Below are positions 1 to 21,171 of a stretch of 37,259 nt of DNA, one piece after another (positions within the stretch are counted from its first letter, which is position 1; every line of letters starts with the position of its first letter). The DNA comes from a virus, in the IMG/VR virus record IMGVR_UViG_3300034630_000003, positions 1 through 37,259 of that record; one strand, 5' to 3'. The notes under the pieces were generated by a model that saw only the letters and a list, made by a program, of their open reading frames with translations, ran no database searches and was not told where the DNA came from. The position numbers and the translations under genes were made by a program.

Positions 1-684
1 CTAAAGCTTCCTCTGGACTGCGACGACGCGACCGATGATTTCGATCTCGCCGTCATAGGCGGTGAAAGGGGCGACTTCTTTCTTGTCTGACAATACCTCA
101 ATGCCGCCGCCGGGAACAGGGCGGAGGCGCTTGATCATGCCGCAATCGGCGTAGGTCAGCACCCAGATGCGGTCGGCGCTGGTGAGCTGGCGCTGATCGG
201 TGTCGATCAGGAGCAGATCGCTGTCGTGGAGGGTCGGTTCCATGCTGTCGCCGATGCCCTGGGCGAAGAACAGCTTGTCGGGCGCGGAGCGGGTGTAGCG
301 GCGCAGCCAGGCGCGGGGGAAGTGGTGGACTTCCTCGGTTACAGGGACATCAAGGTAGGTCGCGCCCATGCCGTAGCTGAGGTCGATCTCGCGGACCGGG
401 ACGTGATCCGGTTGCGACGAACCGAAGAGCGGCACCGGCTCTTGAGGGCGGTACGGGAGGCGTGTTTCGTTGGTTCCAGCCTTCTGCCAACCGGGGAACT
501 GGGGATAGGCCGCGCGCAGCTTTTCGACAGTGCTGAAGCTTAGCCGGGTTTCGGCGGTGCCATTGACGTGACGGTTGATCGTAGAGGCAGCAAGGCCCGC
601 TGCCCTCGCCACCTCAGCCGAGGTCCGGCCTGTAAAGCGCACGAGCTCGCGCACGAGCGCAGCATCCTGATCAAGCCCCTCCAT
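1..684 (-). CDS. C1/LexA-like phage repressor (HTH plus S24 peptidase)
   Basis: 227-residue repressor, the likely master regulator of lysogeny. An N-terminal helix-turn-helix lies at about residues 18-45 (TSAEVARAAGLAASTINRHV). The C-terminal S24/LexA-type peptidase domain has the nucleophile in GDSMEPTL (Ser147) and the general-base lysine in MIKRLRP (Lys185). Family knowledge: such repressors dimerise through the C-terminal domain and inactivate themselves by cleavage during the SOS response. The usual Ala-Gly cleavage pair is not obvious; SYGMGATY near residue 103 sits where it would be expected. The gene is transcribed leftward, divergent from the early operon, as c is in Mu, but Mu c lacks this peptidase architecture, so induction may be more lambda-like. 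The start at 684 leaves an 88-bp control region. Confidence 0.93.
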   Translation of the reverse strand: MEGLDQDAALVRELVRFTGRTSAEVARAAGLAASTINRHVNGTAETRLSFSTVEKLRAAYPQFPGWQKAGTNETRLPYRPQEPVPLFGSSQPDHVPVREIDLSYGMGATYLDVPVTEEVHHFPRAWLRRYTRSAPDKLFFAQGIGDSMEPTLHDSDLLLIDTDQRQLTSADRIWVLTYADCGMIKRLRPVPGGGIEVLSDKKEVAPFTAYDGEIEIIGRVVAVQRKL

Positions 685-5665: not shown

Positions 5666-6113
5666 AGCGCGCTCCCACCCCGACCAGCTCGGCTTCGATT
5701 TCGCGGCGCTGATCGTGCCTGCGGGCGAGGCCGCGCTCGCGGGCTTTGAACGCCGCACCAACGTGCTCGTCGGCGAAATGCTCAATTCGGACGGGCGCGA
5801 CCGCTACCTGCTCGCCGCCGAGGTCAGCCGCCTGCTGGACGAGGATATCAGCAAGGCGATGCTCGATGCCTACTCCAGCCCCGCGCGCGAGGATCACCGC
5901 GTCCCGTTTTCGCGGCTGATGGCGATCGTCATCGTCACCGGGCGCTTCGATCTGTTCGATCGGCACCTGCGCAGCTGCGGCTGCGCGGTGGTGACCGGGG
6001 CCGAGATCGACCTCGTCGAGCTGGGCAATGCCGAGCAGGAGAAGCGGCAGCTCGAAGAAAAAATCAGGATGCTGCGCCGCACCGCGCCGACAATCCGCAG
6101 AGGGGGCGAATGA
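5658..6113 (+). CDS. Hypothetical protein preceding the transposase
   Basis: 151-residue protein directly upstream of the transposase and coupled to it by ATGA. It is mostly helical, with acidic and leucine-rich stretches and a C-terminal charged helix (NAEQEKRQLEEKIRMLRR) that looks like a coiled coil. It holds two cysteines in SCGCAV. The position suggests a role in replication or transposition control; no family is recognised. Confidence 0.65.
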   Translation: MGKARSHPDQLGFDFAALIVPAGEAALAGFERRTNVLVGEMLNSDGRDRYLLAAEVSRLLDEDISKAMLDAYSSPAREDHRVPFSRLMAIVIVTGRFDLFDRHLRSCGCAVVTGAEIDLVELGNAEQEKRQLEEKIRMLRRTAPTIRRGGE

Positions 6114-8074
6114 TGGGGCGCGCGGCGCAGATGATCCCGCTGGAAGCGGACGCGTGGTTTACCGCCGCCGAGCTGGAGGCGCTGGGCCTGCCCGGCCTGC
6201 CGGGAGACAAGCGTTCGATCAATCGCCGGGCGGCGGCGGAGCGCTGGGCCGCGCGGCTCGGCCCGGACAATCGCCTGCTGGTGCGCAAGACCAAGGGCGC
6301 GCGGGGCGGCGGGGTGGAATTCCACGCCAGCCTGCTGCCGGGCGAGGCGCGGATCGAGCTGGCGCGGCGCGGGATCATCCGCCTGCATCCGGTCGCGGTG
6401 TCCGCGCAGGCCACCGCCTGGGACTGGCTCGACCGGCAAAGCGCCAAGGTGAAGGCCGAAGCGCAGCGGCGGCTGGAGGCGGTCACCGCGATCGAGCTGC
6501 TGTGCGAGGCGGGATCGACCCGCAGCGCGGCGGTGGCGGCGGTGTCCGACCAGTCGGGCGTCGGTCGATCGACCTTGTGGAACTGGCTGCGCAGCGTCGA
6601 GGGCCTTGCGCGCGGCAACTGGCTCCCCGCGCTTGCCCCGCGCCGTCAGGGCGGCGGGGCCGAGGCCGAAATCCACCCCGATCTGTGGGAAATCTACAAG
6701 TCCGATGCGCTCCGGCCCGAAAAGCCGCCGCTCGCGGCATGTTATGACGAGGTGAAGCGGACCGCGAAGGCGCGCGGCATCGCCATTCCGCACGCTCGCA
6801 CCTTCCAGCGGCGGTTCGAAAAGGAAGTGCCGCCATCGGTGCGGCGGCTGGCGCGCGAGGGGGCCGATGCGCTGATCCGCACGGTGCCCGATCAACGCCG
6901 CGACGTGACATCGATGCACGCGCTGCAGGCGGTCAATGTCGATGGCCACCAGCTCGACGTGTTCGTCGCCCACCCGCGCACCGGGGAAAAGGTGCGCCCG
7001 GTGGTGATCGCGGTGCAGGACATCTTCAGCCGCAAGATCATCGGTTGGCGGGTGGACCTGTCCGAAAACGTGCTGGCGACGCGGCTGGCCTTTGCCGACG
7101 TGTTCCGCAATTTTGGCATCCCGGCGATCTACCTGTCGGACAACAGCCGCACCTTCGCGGGCAAGCAGCTCTCCGCCGGGGCGGAGACGCGCTATCGATA
7201 TGCCGTGGCCGATGATGAGCCTGCGGGGCTGTTTGTGTCGCTGCAGATCGAAGTGCGCTTCACCCGGCCTTTCGCAGGCCAGTCCAAGCCGATCGAGCGG
7301 GCGTTCCGCGAATTCGGCGATCGCATCTGGCGCGGGCCGGAATGCGCCGGGGCCTACACCGGCAACAGCCCGGTCAATAAGCCCGCGAATTACGACAGCC
7401 GCGTGCTCGGCTGGGACGAGGTGCAGGCGATCGTCGCGCGCGGGATCACGCTCTACAACGCGCGTGAAGGGCGGCAGGCCGGGGCCTGCGCGGGCCGCAG
7501 CTGCGACCAAACCTTCGCCGAAAGCTACGCCGTCGCGCCGATCCGGCAGGCAAGCGCGGGCGAACTGCGGATGGCGCTGCTCGCGTCGGAAGTGAAGAAG
7601 CTCGACAGCCGCACCGGCGAGGTGAAGCTCTACGGCAACCGGTATTACGCCGAACAGTGCATCGACCGGCTGGGTGAGCGGGTGACGGTGCGCTTCGATC
7701 CCGACGATCTGCACCGCGAGGTCTACCTCTACGACCGTGAGGGGCGCTTCATCGCCGAGGCTCCGGTGATCGCCGATCACGGCTTTTTCGACAAGGCCGG
7801 GGCCGAGGAAGTGGCCAAGCGCCGCCGCAACGCGCGCCGCAAGGCGAAGGAATCGCTGGAGGCGCACCGCACGCTCGATGCGGCGGAGGTCGCCGCCACG
7901 CGCGTGGCCATCGATCTGCCCGATCTGCCCGAACCCAGCGTGATCGCGCCGGTGCGCCACCGTGCCAGCGTCGGCGCGGCCGCACTGAAACCCCAGCCCG
8001 CCCCTACGCCGAGCGAGGCGGAGACCGACATCATCGCCGCCCTGGGCAAGGTCAATCTCAGGATCGTCGAGTGA
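6110..8074 (+). CDS. Mu-type DDE transposase (MuA-like)
   Basis: 654-residue transposase, close in length to MuA (663). The N-terminal Mu-type DNA-binding domain covers about residues 10-85. Helical end-binding domains follow. The catalytic RNase H fold carries the DDE triad: Asp278 in VNVDGHQLD, Asp344 in YLSDNSRTF and Glu396 in KPIERAFREF, matching MuA D269/D336/E392 in order and context. The C-terminal part (beta barrel, then a basic tail) should contact the ATPase partner. It cuts and joins phage ends during integration and replicative transposition. It is preceded by an ATGA overlap and followed by a strong hairpin before the ATPase gene, unlike the rest of the operon. All three catalytic residues are present. 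Confidence 0.97.
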   Translation: MMGRAAQMIPLEADAWFTAAELEALGLPGLPGDKRSINRRAAAERWAARLGPDNRLLVRKTKGARGGGVEFHASLLPGEARIELARRGIIRLHPVAVSAQATAWDWLDRQSAKVKAEAQRRLEAVTAIELLCEAGSTRSAAVAAVSDQSGVGRSTLWNWLRSVEGLARGNWLPALAPRRQGGGAEAEIHPDLWEIYKSDALRPEKPPLAACYDEVKRTAKARGIAIPHARTFQRRFEKEVPPSVRRLAREGADALIRTVPDQRRDVTSMHALQAVNVDGHQLDVFVAHPRTGEKVRPVVIAVQDIFSRKIIGWRVDLSENVLATRLAFADVFRNFGIPAIYLSDNSRTFAGKQLSAGAETRYRYAVADDEPAGLFVSLQIEVRFTRPFAGQSKPIERAFREFGDRIWRGPECAGAYTGNSPVNKPANYDSRVLGWDEVQAIVARGITLYNAREGRQAGACAGRSCDQTFAESYAVAPIRQASAGELRMALLASEVKKLDSRTGEVKLYGNRYYAEQCIDRLGERVTVRFDPDDLHREVYLYDREGRFIAEAPVIADHGFFDKAGAEEVAKRRRNARRKAKESLEAHRTLDAAEVAATRVAIDLPDLPEPSVIAPVRHRASVGAAALKPQPAPTPSEAETDIIAALGKVNLRIVE

Positions 8075-10686: not shown

Positions 10687-10880
10687 ACGCGCCCGCCGCC
10701 CTCACCAGCGCCGCGCCGCTGCTCTACTGGCCCGGCGAGACCAACCGCTGTCCGCAGTGCAGCGGCAAGAGCTGGCACGTCGGCCGCGCCGCCGCCGAGT
10801 GCGCGGGCTGCGGCCACCCGCTGCCGCTCGCCCGCCAGCCCGAAACCGGCGAGCCGGTGTGGGAGCCCGCCGCCCAGTGA
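10683..10880 (+). CDS. Small zinc-ribbon protein
   Basis: 65 residues with two zinc knuckles, CPQC (about 23-26) and CAGC (about 40-43), flanking a short beta hairpin: a zinc ribbon. It could bind nucleic acid or serve as a protein adaptor. The start overlaps the previous gene by ATGA and the stop overlaps the Mor-like gene's GTG start. Confidence 0.68.
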   Translation: MNAPAALTSAAPLLYWPGETNRCPQCSGKSWHVGRAAAECAGCGHPLPLARQPETGEPVWEPAAQ

Positions 10881-11296
10881 CCCAGCCCGCCGCCCCGCTG
10901 CCCGATGCGCTGTCCGACATCGCCCTGATCGCGGGTGAGGCGGCGGCGCGCAGCGTGGCGGGCGCGGTCGGCGGGACGCGGGTCTACATTCCACCCAGGC
11001 CCGAAGCCGATCACTGGCTGGTGCAGCTGGTCGGATCGGACGCCGCGCAGCGAATCGCCGATCACTTCACCGGCGGCTTCGGCGGGATCCGCATCGAAAT
11101 CCCGCTGGCCGACACCGGCTTCATCGCGCAGGCGCAGGCGCGCGCCGATGCGATGATCCGCGCCGGGCGCAGCGAACGTGACATCGCCCGCGCCTGCGGC
11201 TACACGATCCGCACCATCCGCCGCCGCCGCGCCGCGTTGAAGCGCGCAGGCCTGCGGATCGGCGATCCCCGCCAGGGCGACCTCTTCACCGGCTAG
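10877..11296 (+). CDS. Mor/C-like middle-late transcription activator
   Basis: 139 residues from GTG 10877. It follows Mor-family architecture: an N-terminal helix, then the strand-turn LVQLVGSDAAQRIADHF (49-65) and GGIRIEIPL that forms the dimer strand, and a C-terminal helix-turn-helix at about 96-120 (SERDIARACGYTIRTIRRRR). In Mu, Mor turns on middle transcription and its paralogue C turns on late genes; they bind dyads centred near -43. Only one such gene is present here, last in the early operon, so it may drive all late promoters. A perfect dyad follows directly after its stop and is repeated before the capsid gene. Confidence 0.85.
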   Translation: MTQPAAPLPDALSDIALIAGEAAARSVAGAVGGTRVYIPPRPEADHWLVQLVGSDAAQRIADHFTGGFGGIRIEIPLADTGFIAQAQARADAMIRAGRSERDIARACGYTIRTIRRRRAALKRAGLRIGDPRQGDLFTG

Positions 11297-11318
11297 GCCC
11301 GGACATCTGTCCGGGGCG
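11296..11318. promoter_or_regulatory. Dyad CCCGGACATCTGTCCGGG upstream of lysis genes (copy 1)
   Basis: 18-bp perfect inverted repeat at 11298-11315 (8-bp arms, 2-bp centre) within a 23-bp block that is identical at 19732-19754. Here it lies between the Mor-like gene and the lysozyme, centred 46 bp before the ATG. If an activator bound as Mor does, transcription would start about 3 bp before the start codon. A transcription terminator is a less likely reading: there is no T-run, and copy 2 follows no rightward gene end. Confidence 0.65.
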
Positions 11319-11352
11319 CGAGACCCGCCGAATTCCCCCATCCAGCGTCGCC

Positions 11353-11931
11353 ATGAGCGTCGCACTTCTCACCCCCCGGACCGTTCTCGAAATCGCCGAG
11401 CACGAAGGCCTTGTGCTGGAGACCTACCTCTGCAGCGCGGGCGAGCCGACGTGGGGCCTCGGCGTCACTGACGCGAGCGGGCACAAGGTCGCGCGCTACT
11501 GGGGCGCGCCCTCCACCGTCGAGCGCGCGGTCGAAGTGTTCGAGTGGCTGCTGCGCACCAAATACCTGCCGCAGGTCACCGCCGCGTTCCGGGGCCGCGA
11601 GCTGACCGAGGCGCAGACCGCCGCCGCCCTTTCCTTCCACTGGAACACCGGCGCGATCGGCCAAGCCGACTGGGTGCAGAGCTTCCTCCTCGGCCGCCGC
11701 GACAAGGCCTGGACCGAATTCATGAACTGGTCGCGCCCGCGCGAGATCATCGCCCGCCGCAAGGCCGAACGCGATCTGTTCTTCGACGGGCGTTGGAGCG
11801 GCGACGGCGTGGTGATGTTCTACGAACGCGTCCGCAAGAACGGCGAGCCTGACTGGAGCAGCGCCCGCCCGCTCGACATCAAGGATGAAGTCCGCGCCGC
11901 ACTGGCCCGCAACGCGCCGGGGATCGGCTGA
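11353..11931 (+). CDS. GH24 lysozyme (endolysin)
   Basis: 192-residue phage lysozyme that cleaves the glycan strands of peptidoglycan at lysis. The catalytic layout is E18-x8-C27-x5-T33 (HEGLVLETYLCSAGEPTWGL), the E-8-(D/C)-5-T triad of T4/P22-type enzymes in the Cys variant. FHWNTGAIG and REIIARRKAERDLF match the later conserved parts. No signal peptide or SAR helix is evident, so it should need a holin for release. It is the first late gene, just after dyad copy 1; no clear ribosome site precedes its ATG. Its stop overlaps the spanin start (TGATG). Confidence 0.92.
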   Translation: MSVALLTPRTVLEIAEHEGLVLETYLCSAGEPTWGLGVTDASGHKVARYWGAPSTVERAVEVFEWLLRTKYLPQVTAAFRGRELTEAQTAAALSFHWNTGAIGQADWVQSFLLGRRDKAWTEFMNWSRPREIIARRKAERDLFFDGRWSGDGVVMFYERVRKNGEPDWSSARPLDIKDEVRAALARNAPGIG

Positions 11932-12569
11932 TGTTGCTGGGGCTGAAGCTGCTGTTCTCGGGCGCGTTTGATGCGCTTCTGAGAGGCGTCTCAGCGGCGC
12001 TTAAGTGGCTGCTGGCGGACTGGCGCAACGCGGTTGTCGGCACGGTGCTTCCCGCGTTCATGTGGATGGCGCTGGTGACCGCGCCGGGCCTGCGCGACGA
12101 GATCGCCGAACGCGACCGCAAAATCGTGCGCGTCAACCTTGATCTCGTTGCCGAGCGGTCCGCGCATCTCGGCACCGTCAACACTTTCCTCGAAGCCTCA
12201 CGACAGGCGCAAAAAGACGCCGAGGCCAACGCCCTGCGGGTCGCCCGCGAACAGGAGATCATCACCGATGCGAGTGTCGCAAACTACCGCCGCGATCTGG
12301 CTGCCCTGCGCGCTCGCGCTGGGCGGCTGCGCGCGCGAGACGCCGCCCGAACCGATCCCGGCCACGCCGACGCGGCTGATCTGCCCGGACTTTCCGGCCC
12401 CGCCGCCCGAGCTGATGCAGCGCCCGGTGAAGACCGACTTCCTGCCGCCGGAGAGCTGAGCGCCAGTGACGCGCTGATCGCCAGCGAGCAGGCGCTGCAG
12501 CTCGATGCGCTGATCGACTGGATCGAGGCGCAGCAGACGGTCCGCTTCAACCCGGAGCCTGCCCAATGA
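11931..12569 (+). CDS. Rz-like inner-membrane spanin
   Basis: 212 residues. A hydrophobic segment at about 33-52 (AVVGTVLPAFMWMALVTAPG) anchors it in the inner membrane. A long charged, periplasmic coiled coil follows (about 54-135), then a proline/alanine-rich part. This, plus a lipoprotein gene nested in another frame, identifies a two-component spanin that fuses inner and outer membranes at lysis. It is longer than typical Rz (about 150), and the N-terminal 30 residues form an extra amphipathic helix. Confidence 0.75.
   Translation: MLLGLKLLFSGAFDALLRGVSAALKWLLADWRNAVVGTVLPAFMWMALVTAPGLRDEIAERDRKIVRVNLDLVAERSAHLGTVNTFLEASRQAQKDAEANALRVAREQEIITDASVANYRRDLAALRARAGRLRARDAARTDPGHADAADLPGLSGPAARADAAPGEDRLPAAGELSASDALIASEQALQLDALIDWIEAQQTVRFNPEPAQ
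12268..12459 (+). CDS. Rz1-like outer-membrane spanin lipoprotein, nested in Rz
   Basis: 63-residue frame wholly inside the Rz gene in a different reading frame, with ATG 12268 and AGGAG ten bases upstream. The N-terminal signal peptide ends in a lipobox, LGGC (Cys21), so the protein should be lipidated and placed in the outer membrane. The mature part is proline-rich (ETPPEPIPATP, FPAPPPE), typical of Rz1. It should bind the coiled coil of the Rz partner across the periplasm. Confidence 0.82.
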   Translation: MRVSQTTAAIWLPCALALGGCARETPPEPIPATPTRLICPDFPAPPPELMQRPVKTDFLPPES

Positions 12570-12781
12570 ACGACAACATCGATCGCGGGCTCGAACGGCA
12601 CGAGGCGCTGCAGGAGCGCCAGCGCGAAGCTGCGGTGGCGCGCGTGCGCAGCAACCTTGCCGGGCTGGGCGAGGAATTCTGCCTCACCTGCGGGGAACGG
12701 ATCGAGGAGGCGCGGCGCGCGGCGCTGCCTTCGGCCAAGCGCTGCGTCGGCTGCCAGACGGCGGCGGAGGCGCGGCGATGA
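12566..12781 (+). CDS. TraR/DksA-family zinc-finger protein
   Basis: 71 residues. An N-terminal helix with alternating charge is followed by a C4 zinc finger: FCLTCGERIEEARRAALPSA and then RCVGCQ. TraR/DksA proteins insert into the RNA polymerase secondary channel and change promoter choice; phage versions in Mu-like genomes also lie near the lysis/packaging genes. Overlaps both neighbours by four bases. Confidence 0.88.
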   Translation: MNDNIDRGLERHEALQERQREAAVARVRSNLAGLGEEFCLTCGERIEEARRAALPSAKRCVGCQTAAEARR

Positions 12782-13254
12782 TCCCGCCGATCGCCTGGCC
12801 GCTCAGCGCCAAGCAATTCCTGGGCGGCTGGGTGCCCGCGCTGGCGGTCAGCGCAGTGGTGCCCGCGCCCGCGCTGCCGCTGGGCGAGCGGTTCCTGATC
12901 GATCTGGCGGGCCTGCCGGTGCCGGTGGTGACCTGCGCGCTGGGCGCGATCGGGATCATCGCCGCGCGGCCGTTCACGGTGCGCGCCGAGGCCGATCTGG
13001 GCTGGAAGCTGCGCCTGCTGGTCAGCTTCATCATGCTGGTGATCGTCGAGCTGTGGATCGTCGAGAGCCGCCCCGGCTGGTTGTTCGCTTTCGTGGTGGC
13101 GATCGGGCTGGGCTTTTCGGGCTACTCGCTGCTCGAGCTGTTCGGAAATCAGGTGAAGGACTTCGTGCGGCGCACCTTCTCGTTGGCGACCGACACAATC
13201 AAGCCCTCAAGCAGCGAAGCGGTAGGGCCGCAGGAAAGGCCGGACGGGAAATGA
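12778..13254 (+). CDS. Membrane protein, candidate holin
   Basis: 158 residues with about three transmembrane helices (roughly 49-63, 79-95, 101-121) and a charged cytoplasmic tail. GLGFSGYSLLELFGNQ resembles the last-helix region of several phage holin families. Its place beside lysozyme and spanins supports a holin role, that is, pore formation timing lysis; direct proof is lacking. The C-terminus contains the peptide PSSSEAVG encoded by the 24-bp repeat at 13204-13227, which is unrelated to the rest of the protein. Confidence 0.68.
   Translation: MIPPIAWPLSAKQFLGGWVPALAVSAVVPAPALPLGERFLIDLAGLPVPVVTCALGAIGIIAARPFTVRAEADLGWKLRLLVSFIMLVIVELWIVESRPGWLFAFVVAIGLGFSGYSLLELFGNQVKDFVRRTFSLATDTIKPSSSEAVGPQERPDGK
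13204..13227. repeat. 24-bp interspersed repeat, copy 1
   Basis: A 24-bp sequence starting CCCTCAAGCAGCGAAGCGG and ending TAGGG is identical at 25836-25859. It has inverted ends (CCCT and AGGG) around a GCGAAGC core, a sequence known to form an unusually stable mini-hairpin. It lies near the 3' end of the holin candidate and is translated there as SSSEAVG. It may be a REP-like host element or an RNA structure separating adjacent genes. Confidence 0.75.
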
Positions 13255-13646
13255 CTTCGGGCAATATCATTGAACTGCTGATCATCGCGGTGATCGTGAT
13301 CGGGATCGGCGCGGCGATCTGGCGCGGCGGCGCGCGCAATCCGGTCGGCACCGGCGGGCTGGAGAAGAAGGTCGCAGCGCTGACCGCCAAGGTCGGCTCG
13401 CTCGATACGCGGCTGGGCGAGATCGAGAAGAACACCGCCAGCCCCGCCGATGTCCGGCGCGTGGAAAAGGCGATCGACAAGCTGGCCGGATCGCTGCCCG
13501 ACATCGAGGCGCGCCAGCGCGCGCTGTCCGACAAGCAGGGCGAACACGCGGCGACCAGCGCGGCGACGGCGGCCAAGGTCGATCACATCGATCGCAGCAT
13601 CCAGCTGATCATGTCGGTGGTGGTGCCGAAGGGGATGAGCAAGTGA
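13251..13646 (+). CDS. Mu gp25-like protein (DUF2730 type)
   Basis: 131 residues: one N-terminal transmembrane helix (IIELLIIAVIVIGIGAAIWR, about 5-24) followed by a long coiled coil with Leu/Lys/Asp heptads. Size, topology and the place just before the gp26/27/28 homologues match the DUF2730 proteins of Mu-like phages, whose function is unknown. Starts with an ATGA overlap. Confidence 0.65.
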   Translation: MTSGNIIELLIIAVIVIGIGAAIWRGGARNPVGTGGLEKKVAALTAKVGSLDTRLGEIEKNTASPADVRRVEKAIDKLAGSLPDIEARQRALSDKQGEHAATSAATAAKVDHIDRSIQLIMSVVVPKGMSK

Positions 13647-13951
13647 GCTTCACCGCCGATCTGGCCGAAGCGCTCGCCCGCGAAGTGCGCCTGAAGATCC
13701 TGCGCGCGCTGGCCGAGCAGGCCGACGGGCGGCTGTCCGACCTGCTGGTCAAGCGCGTGCTCGACATTTACGGCTACCGCCGCTCGCGCGACTGGATCAG
13801 GACGCAGATGCGCAAGCTCGCCGAACTGGGCGCGGTCAGCCTGCACGAGGCCGACGAGGTGCTGTTCGCGCGGATCGAGGCTCCGGGCCGCGATCACCTG
13901 GAGGAGCGCAGCGTCATCGACGGCGTGATGCGCCCGGCGGAGCTGGGCTGA
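13643..13951 (+). CDS. Mu gp26-like winged-helix protein
   Basis: 102 residues from GTG 13643. It is a winged-helix-like protein: REVRLKILRALAEQADGRLS, then RRSRDWIRTQMRKLAELGAV and a short wing. It matches the small phage family that lies just before DUF3486 in Mu-like genomes (VpaChn25_0724-type). Probably connected with DNA packaging, by position only. Confidence 0.7.
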   Translation: MSFTADLAEALAREVRLKILRALAEQADGRLSDLLVKRVLDIYGYRRSRDWIRTQMRKLAELGAVSLHEADEVLFARIEAPGRDHLEERSVIDGVMRPAELG

Positions 13952-13952
13952 G

Positions 13953-14531
13953 ATGGCGCGCAAGGCCAACCGCCGCGAGGGCCGGGGGCACCTGTCGTCG
14001 ATCGACCGGCTGCCCGACGAGGCCGAGCTGGCGATCGCCTGGGCGAACGAGGCCCTGCGCGAACGCAAGCTGCCCAGCGCGGTGATCCTGACCGAGTTCA
14101 ACGAGAAGCTCGCCGATCTGGGCCTCGATCCGATCAGCAAGAGCGCGTGGAGCCGCTACGCGGTGAGGAAGTCGATCCAGTTCCGCCGGCTGGATGAAAT
14201 CCAGCGGATGGGCAGCGAGCTCGCCCGCACGATGGACGCGAGCGCGCCCGACGAGGTGACGATCGCGGTGGCCGAGATGCTGAAAGTGGCGGCGTTCGAA
14301 ATCCTCGAAGGCGGCAACGTCTCGACCGCCGGGATCATGCAGCTCTCGCGTGCGCTGCAAAGCGCGGTGAGCGCGCAGAAGATCAGCGCCGAGTACCGCG
14401 AGCGGCTGGAGAAGGAAGTGCAGGAGCGCCTCGCCGAAGCGGCGAAGGAAGCGGGCGAGATCGGCAAGCGCAAGGGCGTTTCCCCCGAAGCGATGGCTGA
14501 GATCAACCGCGCGCTGACGGGGCAGGTTTGA
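13953..14531 (+). CDS. Mu gp27-like protein (DUF3486), probable small terminase
   Basis: 192 residues. The N-terminus SSIDRLPDEAELAIAWANE and the later HTH-like SKSAWSRYAVRKS match DUF3486, the protein before the large terminase in Mu-like phages and the presumed small terminase that recognises the packaging site. The C-terminal half is a long charged helix suited to oligomerisation. One base separates it from the previous stop; its own stop overlaps the terminase start (TGATG). Confidence 0.85.
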   Translation: MARKANRREGRGHLSSIDRLPDEAELAIAWANEALRERKLPSAVILTEFNEKLADLGLDPISKSAWSRYAVRKSIQFRRLDEIQRMGSELARTMDASAPDEVTIAVAEMLKVAAFEILEGGNVSTAGIMQLSRALQSAVSAQKISAEYRERLEKEVQERLAEAAKEAGEIGKRKGVSPEAMAEINRALTGQV

Positions 14532-15931
14532 TGGGAAACGCGAAGCGCATCCCGGCCAGCCCTGGCGCGATCTTCCTGCCCTACCAGGCGGCGTGGATCG
14601 CGGACGAATCGCGGTTGAAGCTGATCGAGAAATCGCGCCAGATCGGCCTCAGCTGGGCGACCGCCTACGCCGCTGTCTCGCGCACCGCGCTGGCCACCGC
14701 GCGGCACGATCAGTGGGTCAGCAGCCGCGATGATATCCAGGCGCAGCTGTTCCTCGAAGACTGCAAGTTCTGGGCGGGCAACCTGTCGATCGCCGCCGAA
14801 GACCTCGGCGAGCAGGTGCTCGATCCGCGCGACCGCCAGACCGCCTACGTGCTGCGCTTCGCCAGCGCGCGGCGGATCAACTCGATGAGTTCCAACCCCA
14901 ACGCGCAGGCGGGCAAGCGCGGCGGGCGCATCCTCGATGAATTCGCGCTCCACCCCGATCCGCGCAAGCTGTGGACGATCGCCTATCCGGGGATCACCTG
15001 GGGCGGCGCGATGGAGCTGATCAGCACCCACCGGGGCAGCAACAATTTCTTCAACCAGCTGGTCCGCGAGATCCGCGAACAGGGCAACCCGAAAGGGATC
15101 AGCCTGCACACCGTGACGCTGCAGGACGCGCTCGACCAGGGCTTTTTGTGGAAGCTGCAGCAATCGCTTCCGCCCGAGGATCAGCGCCAGGCGATGGACG
15201 AGGCGGCGTATTTCGACTTCATCAAATCGGGCGCGGCGGACGAGGAAAGCTTCCAGCAGGAATACATGTGCCGCCCGGCGGATGATGACGCGGCGTTCCT
15301 CGAATATGATCTGATCGCGCGCAGCGAGTACGCGCAAGGCGTCGACTGGCAGACGCCCGAGGGCGGGACGCTGTTCGCCGGGGTCGATATCGGTCGCAAG
15401 AAAGACCTCACCGTGCTGTGGGTGGTCGAGAAGCTGGGCGATGTGTTCTACACGCGCCACGTCGAGACGCTGCAGAACATGACCAAGCCCGATCAGGAAA
15501 AGGTGATCTGGCCGTGGTTCGAACGCTGCCAGCGGGTCGCGATCGACAACACCGGGCTGGGGATCGGCTGGGTCGACGATGCCAAGCGCAAGTTCGGCGA
15601 GTACCGGATCGAGGGCGTGAACTTCACTGCCAAGAGCAAGGAGGCGCTCGCCTACCCGGTCCGCGGGCTGATGGAGGACCGGCGGCTGCGCATTCCGTAT
15701 TCGGGCGCGATCCGCGCCGATCTGCGCTCTGTCACCAAGGCGGTGACCGCCAGCGGCAACATCCGCTTCACCGCCGAACGCACGCCCGATGGCCACGCCG
15801 ACCGCTTCTGGGCGCTGGCGCTCGCCGTCCACGCGGCGGGCGATGGCGGGGCGGTGCCGTGGCGGATCGTCGCCAGCAGCATCGGCGCAGGCGAGCGCAG
15901 CCCGATCGAGGAAGGATGGATCCCGGCATGA
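14531..15931 (+). CDS. Terminase large subunit (Mu gp28-like)
   Basis: 466 residues. ATPase domain: adenine-binding PYQAAWI (18-24), divergent Walker A EKSRQIGLS (33-41), Walker B RILDEFA (133-139). C-terminal RNase H-like nuclease: AGVDIGRKKDLTVLW with Asp286, then DNTGLGIGW. It translocates phage DNA with some flanking host DNA into proheads and cuts it when the head is full, as in Mu-type packaging. The start at ATG 14531 is preferred over an in-frame TTG at 14528. Coupled to the next gene by ATGA. Confidence 0.94.
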   Translation: MGNAKRIPASPGAIFLPYQAAWIADESRLKLIEKSRQIGLSWATAYAAVSRTALATARHDQWVSSRDDIQAQLFLEDCKFWAGNLSIAAEDLGEQVLDPRDRQTAYVLRFASARRINSMSSNPNAQAGKRGGRILDEFALHPDPRKLWTIAYPGITWGGAMELISTHRGSNNFFNQLVREIREQGNPKGISLHTVTLQDALDQGFLWKLQQSLPPEDQRQAMDEAAYFDFIKSGAADEESFQQEYMCRPADDDAAFLEYDLIARSEYAQGVDWQTPEGGTLFAGVDIGRKKDLTVLWVVEKLGDVFYTRHVETLQNMTKPDQEKVIWPWFERCQRVAIDNTGLGIGWVDDAKRKFGEYRIEGVNFTAKSKEALAYPVRGLMEDRRLRIPYSGAIRADLRSVTKAVTASGNIRFTAERTPDGHADRFWALALAVHAAGDGGAVPWRIVASSIGAGERSPIEEGWIPA

Positions 15932-16092
15932 AAACTGGCACGCACAATCTGGGTGACAACGTGTTCGCCAACATCACGCTGGCGAAGGTGGAGCCGGGCA
16001 AGCTGGTGCTGCGCCAGAGCAGCGCGGGCAGCGCAAAGGAAGTGATCCTGTCGGCCAGCCAGATCGAACTGCTGAAGGAGCTGCTGGCATGA
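15928..16092 (+). CDS. Small beta-rich protein between terminase and portal
   Basis: 54 residues, ATG 15928 in an ATGA overlap, stop overlapping the portal start. It reads as a short beta-rich domain then a helix ending SASQIELLKELLA. No family is recognised. The conserved position suggests a packaging or head accessory, but the function is open. Confidence 0.6.
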   Translation: MKTGTHNLGDNVFANITLAKVEPGKLVLRQSSAGSAKEVILSASQIELLKELLA

Positions 16093-18281
16093 GTAACGCC
16101 AGCTTCCTCACCAAGGCGCTCGCGCGCGTCACCACCTCGCTCACGCGGATGTGGCACCCGGTGCAATCGCTGTTCTTCGGCCAGCGGCTGGGGCGCACGC
16201 GGTTCGATTACGTCGGCGCGGTCGGCGACATGCTCGATGCCTCGGTGGTGATGGCCCCGGTGATGTGGCTGCAGCGCGCGCTGCCCGAAGCGCGGCTGGC
16301 CCTGCGCCAGCGCAAGCGCGACGGATCGCGCGAAGATCTCGACGATCACGAAATGCTGGCGCTGATCCGCACGCCGAACGCGTTTTACGGCGACATCGCG
16401 CTGTGGTCGGCGACGATTCTCAGCCTGCTGATCGCGGGCAACGCCTACTGGATCAAGGTGCGCAGCACCTCGGGCAGGCCGGTGGAGCTGTGGTACGTCC
16501 CGCACTGGATGATCGCGCCCAAGGCCGGGTACGACGGCAGCGAGTTCCTGTCGCATTACGAATACACGCCGGGCACCGGGTTTGGCCGCCAGTATCTCGC
16601 GCCCGAGGACGTGGTGCATTTCCGCCTCGGCCTCAACCCGCGCGACATGCGGCTGGGCCTCTCGCCGCTGCAGGGCGTGATCCGCGAAATCTTCGCCGAC
16701 ATGGAAAGTTCCAACTTCGTGGCGAGCCTGCTGCGGAACATGGGCGTGCCCGGCACGATCATCAGCCCCAAAGGCAGCACGATCTCCACGCCCGAGGATG
16801 TCGAGGCGCTGAAGGCGTGGTTCCGCGAGAACTTCAGCGGCGACAATCGCGGCGGGACGATGGTGATGGGCGCGCCCACCGAGGTCGCCTCGTTCGGGTT
16901 CAACCCGCAGCAGATGAACCTCTCCGAAGCGCGCGACGTGGCCGAGGAACGCGTCTGCGCGGCGGTGGGCATCCCGGCGGCGGTGGTCGGGTTCGGCGCG
17001 GGGCTGCAGCAGACCAAGGTCGGCGCGACGATGGAGGAGCTGAGGAAGCTCGCCTGGCACAACGGCGTGCTGCCGCTGGGCCGCGCGCTGGCGGACGAGC
17101 TGCAGCGCAGCCTGCTCCCCGATTTCGGGCGGCGCGGCGAGACCGGCAGCCTCGAGCTTTACTGGAACGTCGATGACGTGCTGGCGCTGGCCGAGGACGA
17201 GAACCGCCAGATCGAACGCAAGCTCAACGAGCTGAAGGCGGGCGCGATCACGCTCCACGATTACCTCATCGAAACCGGGCGCGACGCGGACGAGAGCCAC
17301 AAGTACTACCTGCGGCCGATCTCCACGATCGAGGTGCCGCTCGGAGAGGCTGGGAAGCCGCGCGAGGCACTGGCCCTGCCCGCGCCCGAGGCTGACCCGG
17401 CGCTGCCTGCGCCTGCTGCGGCCAAGGCGCTGCCAGAGGCGGGAACCAAAACCGTCCCCGAGGACTGGCTCCCCGCAGGCGCGCGCGATGCCAGCCCCGA
17501 GGCGATCGCGCGGGCCGAGCGGGTCGCGCTGATGCTGCGCCGCGCCGAGAGCGGCCAGCGTGAGGCCTTCGCCGCCGCGCTCCGCCCGCTGTTCGAAAGC
17601 TGGGGCGACACCGCAGGCCGGATCGCGAGCGACGTTCTGAGGGCGCGCGGCTTCGATCCCGGCAAGTCCGGCCCCGGCTTCGAGACCAAGGCCGAGCCCG
17701 ATCCCGCGCTCGTCCAGCAGATCATCGACCTGCTCAACATCGAGGCCTGGGAAGAGGGCCTGTCGAGCCGCTACCAGGCGCAGTACGTCCAGATCGCGCG
17801 CGAGACCGCCGCCGCGCTGGAGGAAGCGGGCTTCGGCACCGGGCTGCCCGATCCGGTGATGCGCCAGATCCTCGCCACCGGCGGCACCCGCGCCGGGCTG
17901 GTCGATCTCGACGCGCAGACCCGCGCGGCGATCTTCGATGCGCTGGCCGCAGGCGTGGCCGAGGGCGAAGGCATCCAGGCGCTCGCCAACCGCATTTCCA
18001 ACCAGGTCGAAGGCGGGCACTGGGGCAACGCCGAAACCCGCGCCCGCGTGATCGCCCGCACCGAGACCAAGCACGCGCAGAACATCTCGACGCTGGAGGC
18101 CGGGGCGGCGGCGGGCGTCGATGAATACGTGATCTTCGACGGGCGCTTCGGCGAGCCGCGATCCGAACTCAGCCACATCGCCCGCGACGGCAAGATCGTG
18201 GCGGCGGCGGACGCGCGGATCATGGCCGATACGATGCGCCCCAATTGCACCCTCGGCTTCGTGCCGTATTTTGATCTCTGA
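16089..18281 (+). CDS. Portal protein fused to MuF-type minor head protein
   Basis: 730 residues, about twice the length of an HK97-type portal. Residues 1 to about 410 are portal: SLLIAGNAYWIKVRS, LWYVPHWMI, GLSPLQGVIREIF, and GIPAAVVGFGAGLQQ. A proline/alanine linker (about 425-460) follows. Residues about 480-730 are a MuF/SPP1 gp7-type domain, ending with IARTETKHAQN (near 655), RFGEPRSELSHI and ADTMRPNCTLGFVP. The portal forms the twelve-subunit DNA gate at the capsid vertex; MuF proteins aid head morphogenesis. In Mu these are separate genes (gp29 and gp30), and the portal half here is HK97-like. Confidence 0.9.
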   Translation: MSNASFLTKALARVTTSLTRMWHPVQSLFFGQRLGRTRFDYVGAVGDMLDASVVMAPVMWLQRALPEARLALRQRKRDGSREDLDDHEMLALIRTPNAFYGDIALWSATILSLLIAGNAYWIKVRSTSGRPVELWYVPHWMIAPKAGYDGSEFLSHYEYTPGTGFGRQYLAPEDVVHFRLGLNPRDMRLGLSPLQGVIREIFADMESSNFVASLLRNMGVPGTIISPKGSTISTPEDVEALKAWFRENFSGDNRGGTMVMGAPTEVASFGFNPQQMNLSEARDVAEERVCAAVGIPAAVVGFGAGLQQTKVGATMEELRKLAWHNGVLPLGRALADELQRSLLPDFGRRGETGSLELYWNVDDVLALAEDENRQIERKLNELKAGAITLHDYLIETGRDADESHKYYLRPISTIEVPLGEAGKPREALALPAPEADPALPAPAAAKALPEAGTKTVPEDWLPAGARDASPEAIARAERVALMLRRAESGQREAFAAALRPLFESWGDTAGRIASDVLRARGFDPGKSGPGFETKAEPDPALVQQIIDLLNIEAWEEGLSSRYQAQYVQIARETAAALEEAGFGTGLPDPVMRQILATGGTRAGLVDLDAQTRAAIFDALAAGVAEGEGIQALANRISNQVEGGHWGNAETRARVIARTETKHAQNISTLEAGAAAGVDEYVIFDGRFGEPRSELSHIARDGKIVAAADARIMADTMRPNCTLGFVPYFDL

Positions 18282-18318
18282 TCGGCCTACCGCTCAGAGC
18301 GTTTTGAGGACCAGAGAA

Positions 18319-19029
18319 ATGCAGACCAAGAACCTGACCGTCACCGAGATGGGCGAGGCTGGAAAGGGCCTCGCGATCCTCGCCCGCCTGTCCGAAGTCG
18401 ATCACGACGGCGAGACGTACCTGCGCGGCGCGTTCAGCTGGAAGGACGGCGGCGAGCAGTGGTGCCCGCTGATCCATCACCACGATCGCCGATCTTTCCC
18501 GTTCGGCAAGGCGCGGGTCTACGAAGAGGGCGACATCGCCTACGCCGAGCTGCACCTCAATCTCGAAACGCAGGCCGGGAAGGACTGGCACGCCGCGCTG
18601 AAGTTCGATCTGGCGAACGGCAAGGCGGTGCAGGAGTACAGCTACGGTTTCGACGTCATCGATGCGGACTTCCAGGTGCGCGGCGATGATCGGGTGCGGG
18701 TGTTGAAGCGGCTCGACGTGCACGAAGTCTCGACCGTGGTGCGCGGCGCGGGGCGCAACACCGGGACGGTCAGCATGAAGGGCCTGAAAGAAGCGGCGTT
18801 CGCTCCGCTGATCGCGGGCCTGGGCGAGCTGACCGAGGCGCTGGGCGGCGATCCGGCGGCGCTCACCGCGACCGGGCGCAAGCAGCTCGAGGCGATCCAC
18901 GCGGCGCTGGGCAAGGCGCTGGCGGGCGATGGCAGCGCGGAGGATCAGGCGAAAGCGCGCGACATCATCGAGCACGCACTGGCGGCCGATGCGGTGCGCG
19001 GCGCGCGGCGGTTCCTAGACCCCCGCTAG
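18319..19029 (+). CDS. HK97-type prohead protease
   Basis: 236 residues. The conserved blocks are HHHDRRSFPFGKA (53-65, catalytic His), YSYGFDVID (107-115, catalytic Ser108) and VHEVSTV (134-140). Family role: cleaves scaffold/delta domains of the capsid protein and itself during head maturation. The ATG at 18319 is chosen because GAGGA lies 8-13 bases upstream. The C-terminal helical tail (about 150-236) may act as a scaffold. It is separated from the capsid gene by leftward genes. Confidence 0.9.
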   Translation: MQTKNLTVTEMGEAGKGLAILARLSEVDHDGETYLRGAFSWKDGGEQWCPLIHHHDRRSFPFGKARVYEEGDIAYAELHLNLETQAGKDWHAALKFDLANGKAVQEYSYGFDVIDADFQVRGDDRVRVLKRLDVHEVSTVVRGAGRNTGTVSMKGLKEAAFAPLIAGLGELTEALGGDPAALTATGRKQLEAIHAALGKALAGDGSAEDQAKARDIIEHALAADAVRGARRFLDPR

Positions 19030-19032
19030 AAT

Positions 19033-19065
19033 GCCCCAGAATTGACGCGAGGCGCTTTCTGGGGC
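19033..19065. terminator. Hairpin between convergent genes
   Basis: 9-bp perfect stem GCCCCAGAA (19033-19041) with TTCTGGGGC (19057-19065) and a 15-nt loop containing a further GCG/CGC pairing. It starts three bases after the prohead protease stop and lies ahead of the leftward nuclease operon's end, so it can terminate transcription from both sides. No long T-run follows on the plus strand. Confidence 0.65.
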
Positions 19066-19138
19066 TCGCCTAGCCAAAAGCGCAGCGGCAGGGTTCTTAT
19101 GCCTTCTTAAATCGCGCCTGAGCGGTGTTTGAGAACGA

Positions 19139-19273
19139 TCAGCCCCGGCGTTCGAGAAATTTCTCGACCGCAGCGCGCAGATCGAGCCAGCGGGCGCGTT
19201 CGTCGGGCAGGAATTCGGGAAACTCTTTCACCCGGTCGAACGCTGCGCGCAGGGCGGCGATGTCATCATCCAT
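19139..19273 (-). CDS. 44-aa charged protein, second gene of the leftward cassette
   Basis: 44 residues starting at ATG 19273, overlapping the end of the nuclease gene by 8 bases. It is helical and charged (MDDDIAALRAAFDRVKEFPE, then LPDERARWLDLRAA). It has no signal peptide, so unlike the nuclease it should stay in the cytoplasm. It might be a partner or protective protein for the nuclease, but nothing in the sequence shows this beyond the coupling. Confidence 0.6.
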   Translation of the reverse strand: MDDDIAALRAAFDRVKEFPEFLPDERARWLDLRAAVEKFLERRG

Positions 19274-19643
19274 TGCCACACCAATCGATCCGGCCCGGCC
19301 AGCGGCCTGCCAGCCCTTCGCGCACCAGCTGGTCGCCGATCGGGCTGATCACCGCCAGCGTGCGTCCGAAGCGATCGGTGCCGGTGCGGCGGATGGTGAC
19401 GCGGCGTTCGTTCAGCAGCACTATCAGCCGGTCGCGCGCTGACAGGGCCAGCGCGCGTTCGCGCGGGCAGCTGGCGGTGAGTTCGGGCGCGTCGATCTCT
19501 GCCAGCCGGATCTTCTCGCCGTGCCACCACAGTGTGTCGCCATCGTGGACGCAGTGGTGGCGCGGGGCGCTGGACGAACCGGGGGCCGGGCAGGCGGCGA
19601 TCGCGGCGGAGCCAAGGAAGAGCGGGGTAAGAGCGAGCAGCAT
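19266..19643 (-). CDS. Secreted staphylococcal-nuclease-like protein
   Basis: 125 residues. Signal peptide MLLALTPLFLGSAAIAA, then a compact SNase (thermonuclease) domain: HDGDTLWW, IRLAEIDAPEL and DRFGRTLAVI. Arg46, Asp51, Glu54 and Arg94 match the catalytic Arg35, Asp40, Glu43 and Arg87 of Staphylococcus nuclease. It should hydrolyse DNA/RNA outside the cytoplasm with calcium. It lies backwards between prohead protease and capsid genes, with its own upstream region, the usual look of a moron expressed in the lysogen. Ribosome site AAGGTG lies just upstream of the ATG. Confidence 0.87.
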   Translation of the reverse strand: MLLALTPLFLGSAAIAACPAPGSSSAPRHHCVHDGDTLWWHGEKIRLAEIDAPELTASCPRERALALSARDRLIVLLNERRVTIRRTGTDRFGRTLAVISPIGDQLVREGLAGRWPGRIDWCGNG

Positions 19644-19848
19644 CCGATCACCTTAGCGCACCGCGTTCCATTTGCCCAATCGCGCCTACCGCGCTAGTCA
19701 GTGCGCCAATCCCCAAACGCCGCGTTCCGCTGGCCCGGACATCTGTCCGGGGCGAGAAGCGCCGCGCGCGCGGCCAGAACGTCTCCACCGGTTTTCGCCG
19801 GACCTCAGGCTCTTTCGCCTTTGGCCCGGCCCAGTGGAGAAACGCACA
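19644..19848. promoter_or_regulatory. Divergent control region: nuclease cassette / capsid operon
   Basis: 205 bp without a convincing gene. It should hold a leftward promoter for the nuclease and a rightward late promoter for the capsid operon. Dyad copy 2 is in the middle (19734-19751). The capsid ribosome site GTGGAGAA lies about 10 bases before the ATG at 19849. No clear sigma-70 promoter is visible, which fits activator-dependent late transcription. Confidence 0.55.
19732..19754. promoter_or_regulatory. Dyad CCCGGACATCTGTCCGGG upstream of capsid (copy 2)
   Basis: The 23-bp block is identical to that at 11296-11318, including the perfect 18-bp dyad at 19734-19751. It lies 94 bp before the capsid ATG. 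Two exact copies, each upstream of a late transcription unit, one directly after the Mor-like activator gene, make an activator-binding site the favoured reading. Confidence 0.68.
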
Positions 19849-21171
19849 ATGTCCGATATCAAGAACCTGACGCGCAAGGAGGCGCAGGAGAAGCTTCAGA
19901 CCCGCCAGGACGACATGGCCAAGGTGATCGCCGAGGCCAAGACCGACAGCGGCGAGCTGGATTTCCGCAACGTGAAGTCGCTCGGCACGCCTGCCGGTGA
20001 CAGCATCGCGGTGGCCGAGAAGTTCAAGGCGCTCAATGACGAGGCCGACGCGCTCTGCAAGCACATCGAGACGCTGGGTGCTGCCGAAAAGGCCGCTGCC
20101 GATCACGCCGATCGTGAAAAGGGCATCCGGGGCTTCACCTTCCCCGGCCAGGGCGTCGGCAACGGCGGGCGGCCTGCGAACGAGGGCCAGTTCAAGTCGC
20201 TCGGCCAGCAGATGACCGAGGCCAAGGAGTTCAAGGCCTGGCGCGACAACTCCAAGAGCGGCGGGGTCGACATCGCGCTCGATGCGTTGCCCTCCGATTT
20301 CCTTGCCAAGGCGGCGCAGTTCCAGACCCTGGGCAACAAGGCGCTGATGACCACGGCGGCGGGCTTTGCCCCGGAAAGCCTCCGCCTGCCCGGCTTCGTC
20401 GACGCGGTGACCCGCCCGATCCAGCTGCTCGACATCTTGCCGATGGGGCAGGTCTCGCAGGCGGCGGTGCCCTACATGGAAGAAACCACCCGCACCCACG
20501 CGGCTGCGGAAGCGGCTGAAGGCGCGGCGTTTGCGGAAAGCACCTTCGTCTTCACCCAGCGCTCGATCCCGGTGGTCAAGATCACCGACAGCCTGCCGGT
20601 GACCGACGAGCAGCTCGAGGACGTGGCGCTGATCGAAAGCTACGCCAACGGCCGCCTCGCGTTCGGCGTGCGTCAGCGGCTCGACCAGCAGGCGATGTCG
20701 GGCAACGGCACCGCGCCGAACATGCGCGGCATCCTCAACACGGCGGGCATCCAGACGCTGGCGCGCGGTGCCGATCCGCAGATGGACGCGCTTTACAAGG
20801 CGATGGTGCGGATCCGCACGATTGGCCGGGCGCTGCCGACCCACCAGTGCATCCACCCGCTCGACTGGCAGGACATCCGCCTGACGCGCACCGCCGACGG
20901 CATCTACATCTTCGGTTCGCCGATGGAGGCCGGGCCGGAGCGGCTGTGGGGCCTTCCGGTGGTGCAGAACGAAAGCATCGCCGAGAACACCTCGCTGGTC
21001 GGCAGCTTCGAGCCGAGCTGGATCACGTTGTTCGAACGGCGCGGGATCGATCTGCAGGTCGGCTACGTCGGCAACCAGTTCGGCCAGGGCATCCGCACGA
21101 TGCGCGCCGACATGCGCGCCGCGCTGGTGCTGTTCCGCCCGGCAGCGTTCCACACCGTCACCGGCATGTGA
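19849..21171 (+). CDS. HK97-family major capsid protein
   Basis: 440 residues. The N-terminal about 110 residues form a charged coiled coil (delta/scaffold domain) expected to be removed by the prohead protease. The rest is the HK97 fold: VDAVTRPIQLLDILPMGQV, PYMEETTRTHAAAEAAEGAA, KITDSLPVTDEQLED (spine helix region), VRQRLDQQAMSGNGTAPNMR, and MEAGPERLWGLPVV. It ends LVLFRPAAFHTVTG, typical of the last P-domain strand. Three strong hairpins follow the stop. Confidence 0.94.
   Translation: MSDIKNLTRKEAQEKLQTRQDDMAKVIAEAKTDSGELDFRNVKSLGTPAGDSIAVAEKFKALNDEADALCKHIETLGAAEKAAADHADREKGIRGFTFPGQGVGNGGRPANEGQFKSLGQQMTEAKEFKAWRDNSKSGGVDIALDALPSDFLAKAAQFQTLGNKALMTTAAGFAPESLRLPGFVDAVTRPIQLLDILPMGQVSQAAVPYMEETTRTHAAAEAAEGAAFAESTFVFTQRSIPVVKITDSLPVTDEQLEDVALIESYANGRLAFGVRQRLDQQAMSGNGTAPNMRGILNTAGIQTLARGADPQMDALYKAMVRIRTIGRALPTHQCIHPLDWQDIRLTRTADGIYIFGSPMEAGPERLWGLPVVQNESIAENTSLVGSFEPSWITLFERRGIDLQVGYVGNQFGQGIRTMRADMRAALVLFRPAAFHTVTGM

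Follow-up and report, generated by a model that had tools for sequence, protein, structure and literature searches.

Two copies of an identical 23-bp block, GGCCCGGACATCTGTCCGGGGCG, precede the two late transcription units of the virus recorded as IMGVR_UViG_3300034630_000003 in IMG/VR, of which positions 1 to 37,259 were analyzed (the window, 37,259 nt). On the sequence evidence, the blocks are most probably the operators of the phage's own Mor/C-family activator, each lying in an activator-dependent late promoter, and we put the probability of this reading at about 0.92. The pairing of the blocks, their conservation, their co-variation with the recognition helix of the activator, their fixed spacing and their absence from the host background were computed, and from these results we infer binding, dimerisation, activation and start sites.

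An identical dyad before both late units

The block occupies positions 11296-11318 and 19732-19754 on the plus strand and has no other copy in the window. Inside it lies a dyad, CCCGGACATCTGTCCGGG, which consists of two 8-bp arms around a 2-bp centre and is present in exact copies at 11298-11315 and 19734-19751 and nowhere else in the whole window. When up to three mismatches were allowed, only the opposite-strand reading of the same two sites was added. By chance 0.07 matches were expected, and four matches were reached in 0 of 100 shuffled sequences. The window also contains other exact repeats of at least 23 bp (13204/25836 and 21857/21902, the second pair 45 bases apart), so repetition by itself is unremarkable and the special features of the block are its dyad symmetry, position and conservation. 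The portion conserved across relatives is GGAC-N4-GTCC together with an asymmetric right flank, GGGGCG. Half-sites are written here as b1 b2 b3 b4 followed by N4, where b1 is the outer and b4 the inner base; the half-site of the window is GGAC. The core reads GGAC-ATCT-GTCC at 11301-11312 in putative operator 1 and lies at 19737-19748 in putative operator 2.

The first base of operator 1 is the final base of the stop codon of the activator gene (10877-11296, plus strand). Downstream of it lies a phage lysozyme/endolysin gene (11353-11931, plus strand; Pfam Phage_lysozyme, PHROG 7), the first gene of late unit 1. Operator 2 lies in an intergenic gap, with a minus-strand nuclease-like gene (19266-19643) on its upstream side and the gene of the HK97-type major capsid protein (19849-21171, plus strand; Pfam Phage_capsid, E 5e-36; PHROG 10), the first gene of late unit 2, on its downstream side; 94 bp separate the end of the block from the capsid ATG at 19849. 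A first-pass annotation of the window had claimed that the dyad occurs exactly twice, once between a Mor-like gene and the lysozyme gene and once 94 bp before the capsid gene; the mismatch scan and the shuffles bore out the count, and the coordinates agreed. No third copy of the operator was found in the window, so the activator apparently does not control its own gene through it.

The 139-aa activator matched PHROG 836 ('late transcriptional activator') over residues 5-137 with an E-value of 4.8e-25. Its match to Pfam Mor (PF08765) scored 24.7 bits (E 2.4e-5), 0.2 bits short of the curated cut-off of 24.9. The Mor hidden Markov model gave this single match in the window, in agreement with the earlier statement that only one Mor/C-family gene is present. 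An AlphaFold2 model contained a C-terminal helix-turn-helix formed by residues 100-107 and 111-123, with a local confidence score (pLDDT) of ∼88-89. The second of these helices is the predicted recognition helix (codons at 11207-11245, plus strand), based on the model and on the co-variation of residues 112, 115 and 116 with the operator. The codons of these putative specificity residues are located on the plus strand at 11210-11212 (R112), 11219-11221 (R115) and 11222-11224 (R116).

The two-site arrangement in relatives and host genomes

Searches with the activator yielded 5, then 37 and then 80 viral loci, in addition to a prophage in Erythrobacter sp. WG (L008) and ∼16 further activators from a sample of Sphingomonadales genomes. 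The 23 loci with enough downstream DNA, the window included, each contained exactly two dyads on the same strand. Site 1 was usually 3-23 nt past the activator stop (184 nt in L017) and site 2 was 7.7-8.9 kb downstream. L004 and L014 had a single site, and their contigs end too early for a second one. The gene after site 1 was an endolysin in the relatives tested, and the gene after site 2 encoded an HK97-type capsid protein in the clade of the window and, in phages less closely related to it, a Mu-type head maturation protease. The first-pass annotation had proposed looking for the dyad before the late genes of related phages, and the two-site pattern of these loci is what was found there. 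In one subgroup (L218, L220, L034 and L238) a second conserved dyad, GTTTCAC-rGGAAAC, was observed just after the activator stop and before a TGAC operator.

In the 3.3 Mb genome of Erythrobacter sp. WG, the sequence GGACN4GTCCGGGGCG occurred only twice, both times in the prophage. Among 399 Sphingomonadales genomes, a slightly longer GGAC pattern was present at 3 places in 2 genomes, all of them activator-bearing prophages, and the GGAA pattern was present in 9 genomes. Scattering of the dyad through the host genome, which the first-pass annotation had named as one outcome that would speak against its proposal, was not observed; the window-type operator occurred only in activator prophages. 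These counts bear on the idea that the dyads serve a different regulator, such as a host factor or the S24-type repressor of the phage (gene at 1-684, minus strand). A repressor gene is indeed present, and late promoters are repressible in principle. However, no dyad copy lies near the repressor gene in the window, the operator changes in step with individual helix residues of the Mor-family activator (see below), and the confinement to activator prophages in 399 genomes of the host order leaves no operator in the host background, on which ground a host regulator was rejected. Control by another regulator is extremely unlikely. In one of these 9 genomes, a prophage (G160; C11, positions 994024, 1001172 and 1007135) contained three GGAA-class operators, the first directly after the activator, and so a third late promoter, ∼13 kb past the activator, would exist in some relatives.

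Bases of the putative operators follow residues of the predicted recognition helix

Across the family, Arg115 was accompanied by G at the outer base b1, and His, Tyr, Phe or Trp at this position by T. At the inner base b4, Arg116 was accompanied by C, and A was found when residue 116 was Lys, Leu, Met, Thr, Asn, Tyr, Gln or Glu. Serine in place of R112 went together with a change of b3 from A to T (L023 and L209). For blind calls, in which the helix was not consulted, the strongest palindrome in the 75 nt after the activator stop was taken for each of 64 non-identical activators. An outer G was found for 33/35 activators with Arg115 compared to 1/29 with other residues (Fisher 1e-14), and an inner C for 40/43 with Arg116 compared to 5/21 with other residues (Fisher 3e-8), both as raw values in which relatedness is ignored. 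Because of the latter, a tree was built from the part of the activator that precedes the helix. On this helix-free tree residue 116 changes 14 times. In 9 independent, well-supported pairs b4 switched in the same way in 6-7 and in the opposite way in 0 (sign test, median p 0.03). Residue 115 provided only 4 independent pairs, with 3 switches in the same and 0 in the opposite way, which is too few for significance. Residue 113 (T or G) was considered as determinant of the inner base and ruled out by L207 (G113, R116, GGAC) and L170 (A113, K116, GGAA).

A second copy was searched 5-10 kb downstream, with half-site agreement between the copies as part of the search criterion; the informative part of this search is that copies exist where they are expected and agree with the helix. 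The distal copy was found in 43 loci, and both rules (115 and 116) were obeyed in 40 of them. The distant loci L036, L037, L038 and L040 contained the operators predicted from their helices: GGAA with R115 and M or T at 116, and TGAA with F115 and Q116. In the close pair L009 and L016, the helices are GVRK and TVRR and the second operators are GGAACGCGTTCC and GGACATCTGTCC, respectively. The DNA flanking site 2 is near-identical in the two (137/150 upstream and at least 67/75 downstream). Operator 2 and the helix, which are 8.5 kb apart, were thus switched together, and as the operator changed within near-identical flanks at this distance, linkage to the activator gene is no explanation.

The match between helix and operator could also stem from shared ancestry or from co-transfer of linked DNA, with an activator that uses both sites and no direct reading of these bases. 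Operator 1 is at most ∼100 bp from the helix codons and could travel with them, and related sequences inflate simple counts. Against this, operator 2 matches as well from ∼8 kb away, L009 and L016 differ at the operator inside nearly identical flanks, the independent pairs on the helix-free tree stand at 6-7 to 0, and distant named phages fit (see below). Ancestry or co-transfer as the source of the match is very unlikely.

The co-variation also bears on whether the dyads act as RNA, that is, as transcription terminators or hairpins of which the first ends the early transcript after the activator and the second insulates the capsid unit. An RNA hairpin of 7 bp with a 4-nt loop is possible, terminators are predicted after mor and C in Mu, and the first dyad of phage RcapMu is followed by TTTT. 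However, a terminator scan found no T tract after either site and called no terminator-like site, the hairpin stability was ordinary and not above that of shuffled sequences (z ∼-1.2), and the genes on either side of site 2 diverge, and no plus-strand gene that it could terminate lies close upstream. On these grounds the terminator was rejected as a candidate. Terminators would moreover not co-vary with a DNA-binding helix at two places 8 kb apart, and we regard such a role as highly improbable.

On comparative grounds it is well supported that the operator sequence tracks residues 112, 115 and 116 of the recognition helix, and partners can largely be matched from sequence. The earlier proposal that one activator serves the same operator before both late units gains support from this co-variation, the distal site included. 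We are inclined to go further and suggest that the Mor/C family has a small, largely modular code, in which residues 112, 115 and 116 would read three bases of each half-site, and that these phages repeatedly switch specificity with all distant operators included, possibly insulating late-gene control between co-resident or co-infecting phages. One host genome (G025) contained two activator genes (L255 and L274) with adjacent dyads of different classes, TGACACGTGTCA and TGAACCACTTCA; such a difference would be in keeping with prophages insulated from one another in a common host. The helix-operator code and the repeated coordinated switching look new, as no description of them was found in the open-access literature.

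Predicted promoter geometry and the first late mRNAs

When the sites were aligned without gaps on the dyad centre, a -10-like element, CANANN, was found to begin 31-33 bp downstream of the centre in both site sets. Its variants were CATCCA, CACAAG, CAGAAC or CATTAx at site 1 and CATATG, CACATG, CATACG, CAATAC or CATTAC at site 2. In the window the putative hexamers are CATCCA (11339-11344, plus strand) and CAGAAC (19775-19780, plus strand), each at +32 from the respective dyad centre, with probable starts at ∼11351 and ∼19787. No promoter-like -35/-10 pair was found in 10800-20200. If the -10-like element is taken as -12 to -7, the dyad centre is placed at ∼-44 to -46. The 16-bp dyad of Mu Mor at the promoter Pm is centred at -43.5 (PMC4287176, PMC4390567). 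The first-pass annotation had assumed a Mor-like geometry with the dyad centre at ∼-43, to which the ∼-44 obtained from the spacing corresponds.

The first start codon is located 44-47 bp past the dyad centre of site 1 in 22/28 relatives, and the ATG of the window at 46 bp. No ribosome-binding sequence was found before the lysozyme ATG (11353) in the window. Together, these two features point to a first late mRNA that is probably leaderless or nearly so, and the lysozyme mRNA of the window is probably of this kind, as had been proposed earlier from the assumed Mor-like geometry, in keeping with the missing ribosome site. The conserved position of the start suggests that leaderless translation is regular for the first late gene in the group of the window. 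In Pseudomonas phage D3112 (L280), an ATG was observed 43 bp past the dyad centre at both sites (near 10750 and 19790). These are unannotated starts, and the spacing is nearly that of the window's group.

The leader of the capsid gene is flanked by an inverted repeat that was read from the sequence (19783-19839, plus strand), with CTCCAC at 19783-19788 and GTGGAG at 19834-19839. The right arm probably contains the capsid ribosome site. The repeat is kept in the close relatives L003, L007, L008, L010, L017, L018 and L021, where the inner hairpin is variable, and for its conservation it was considered as a candidate hairpin that sequesters the ribosome site. Against such a hairpin, the left arm straddles the probable start and several relatives lack the repeat. 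An Rfam search gave zero hits.

Based on these data, the following course of events can be proposed. Transcription of the early operon would yield the activator. Presumably this protein acts as a dimer like Mu Mor, with which the symmetry of the operator is consistent, and it would recognise GGAC-N4-GTCC by its C-terminal helix, where specificity would depend on residues 112, 115 and 116. From a position ∼44-46 bp before the start, where a -35 element would otherwise lie, it would recruit the host RNA polymerase, or activate it, at a -10 element that is itself poor. Transcription from promoter 1, the equivalent of Mu Plys, would begin on the lysozyme ATG or no more than a few bases from it and produce a nearly leaderless lysis mRNA. 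Promoter 2, the equivalent of Mu PI, would start near 19787 and produce an mRNA of the capsid and downstream genes with a leader that contains a ribosome site. With both operators bound, the lysis-packaging unit and the capsid-tail unit may be switched on together.

Several observations weigh against the assignment of the blocks as operators of the activator, or against parts of it. The top structural match of the activator model in Foldseek was Mu Mor (1rr7), but it was weak (E 0.32), and the search was otherwise uninformative. Some relatives have no clear dyad after the activator. L228 combines R115 with an outer T, and among the 43 loci with a distal copy the rules were broken by L209, which has K116 with an inner C (and Ser at 112), and by L221 and L224, which look like GC-rich chance pairs. 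The -10-like elements of the window, CATCCA and CAGAAC, are weak. In six relatives the first start is ∼87-106 bp from the dyad, so the leaderless mRNA is not universal. Finally, no operator pair or repeat was found in phage B3.

Further features of the window

Downstream of the lysozyme gene come the genes for the terminase subunits, for a portal protein with a fused Mu-F-like domain and for a protease. In the portal protein (16089-18281), the Mu-F-like head morphogenesis domain is C-terminal and part of the same polypeptide. The minus-strand gene at 19266-19643, reversed between the protease and capsid genes and just upstream of operator 2, is staphylococcal-nuclease-like and looks like an inserted accessory gene. 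A Mu-type transposase is encoded at 6110-8074.

Comparison with known systems

Mu aside, we found no open-access paper that defines late-gene control of transposable phages. The sequences of dozens of phages, the isolates RcapMu, D3112, RR1-B and YPCBV-1 among them, now allow operators and their cognate residues to be assigned, and the late promoters of these phages can be annotated directly. Natural pairs such as L009 and L016 make the switching of protein-DNA specificity testable with existing sequences. If the code holds, operators would be predictable from the activator sequence across transposable phages.

Named phages were checked after the rules had been drawn up and are therefore out-of-sample. 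Six agreed with the rules: RcapMu, RR1-B, YPCBV-1, D3112, POA1180 and EBPR siphovirus 4. In the 39,000 bases of RcapMu (NC_016165; helix HVRR) that were examined, GGACCTGTGTCC occurs twice, once behind the activator gene and once ahead of the protease gene; neither site is annotated in the record. Like the window, RcapMu has a single annotated late activator and exactly two sites, here of the form CCCGGACCTGTGTCCGGG; unlike in the window, the activator is distant and the second site precedes a Mu-type head protease, not an HK97-type capsid gene. Rhizobium phage RR1-B (WVRE) and D3112 (WIWE) likewise have one annotated activator each and repeated operators before late units, four and two, respectively. 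Their cores differ from that of the window. In RR1-B it is GGAAC-N3-GTTCC, present four times, and in D3112, which contains TGAACCCCTTCC twice, it is TGAA-CCCC-TTCC with an imperfect right half. The RR1-B operators (L284; CCGGAACCGAGTTCCGG-like, at 11535, 18999, 26076 and 31113) recall the four C-dependent promoters of Mu. YPCBV-1 (QVYT) contains CGCTGAAGTCCTTCGCCT twice with an imperfect right half, in POA1180 (SAYR) copies of TGACACTGTCA follow the activator gene and precede the tail sheath gene, and the 10-kb fragment of EBPR siphovirus 4 (HVRR) has one site, behind the activator. In RR1-B and POA1180 the length of the spacer deviates by one base. Enterobacter phage Arya is a family member with a non-Mu-like genome, in which no site was found.

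Structures of Mor and C are available in the Protein Data Bank (PDB; 1rr7, 9l0y, 9l0x and 9vw8). The activator of the window resembles Mu Mor in family and in the predicted geometry of its sites, with the dyad centre ∼44-46 bp before the probable start. A Mor dimer binds a dyad at -43.5 of Pm, which has a -10 without a -35 element (PMC4390567). The Mor element consists of two 5-bp repeats and a 6-bp GC-rich spacer (PMC4390567). Mor differs in serving one middle promoter only, and by alignment it has N, Y and K at the positions of R112, R115 and R116. The outer T of the Mor and C dyads fits the Tyr at the R115 position, although these dyads were self-assigned and not used as evidence. When the four Mu late promoters were scanned for symmetry, no dyad common to them passed the threshold used.

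In Mu, C serves four late promoters, and the Mor and C dyads are established (PMC4287176, PMC4461284). The window shares with Mu C an activator of the same family and a common dyad at several late promoters (PMC4287176; PMC4461284), with the first site directly after the activator gene and before the endolysin. The second Mu site precedes the head protease. According to the Mu layout in AF083977, operators 1 and 2 occupy the positions of Plys and PI, respectively. As both promoters are C-dependent, the activator would work like Mu C and not like Mu Mor. In Mu, Mor is needed to make C, there are four C promoters, the half-sites are AT-rich and ribosome sites precede the first genes. In the window, one activator would serve two promoters, the GGAC-N4-GTCC core is GC-rich and the lysozyme mRNA probably lacks a leader. 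The window does not show a Mu-type two-step cascade, which would have two Mor/C genes and a middle promoter of its own; it has one gene and two identical dyads. Of the earlier proposal that a single activator replaces the Mor/C cascade, the single activator stands, but this is not special to the window, since RcapMu, D3112, B3 and RR1-B each have one annotated activator gene and Mu has two. By its order of genes and putative sites, the window is the Mu C arrangement in its common single-activator form.

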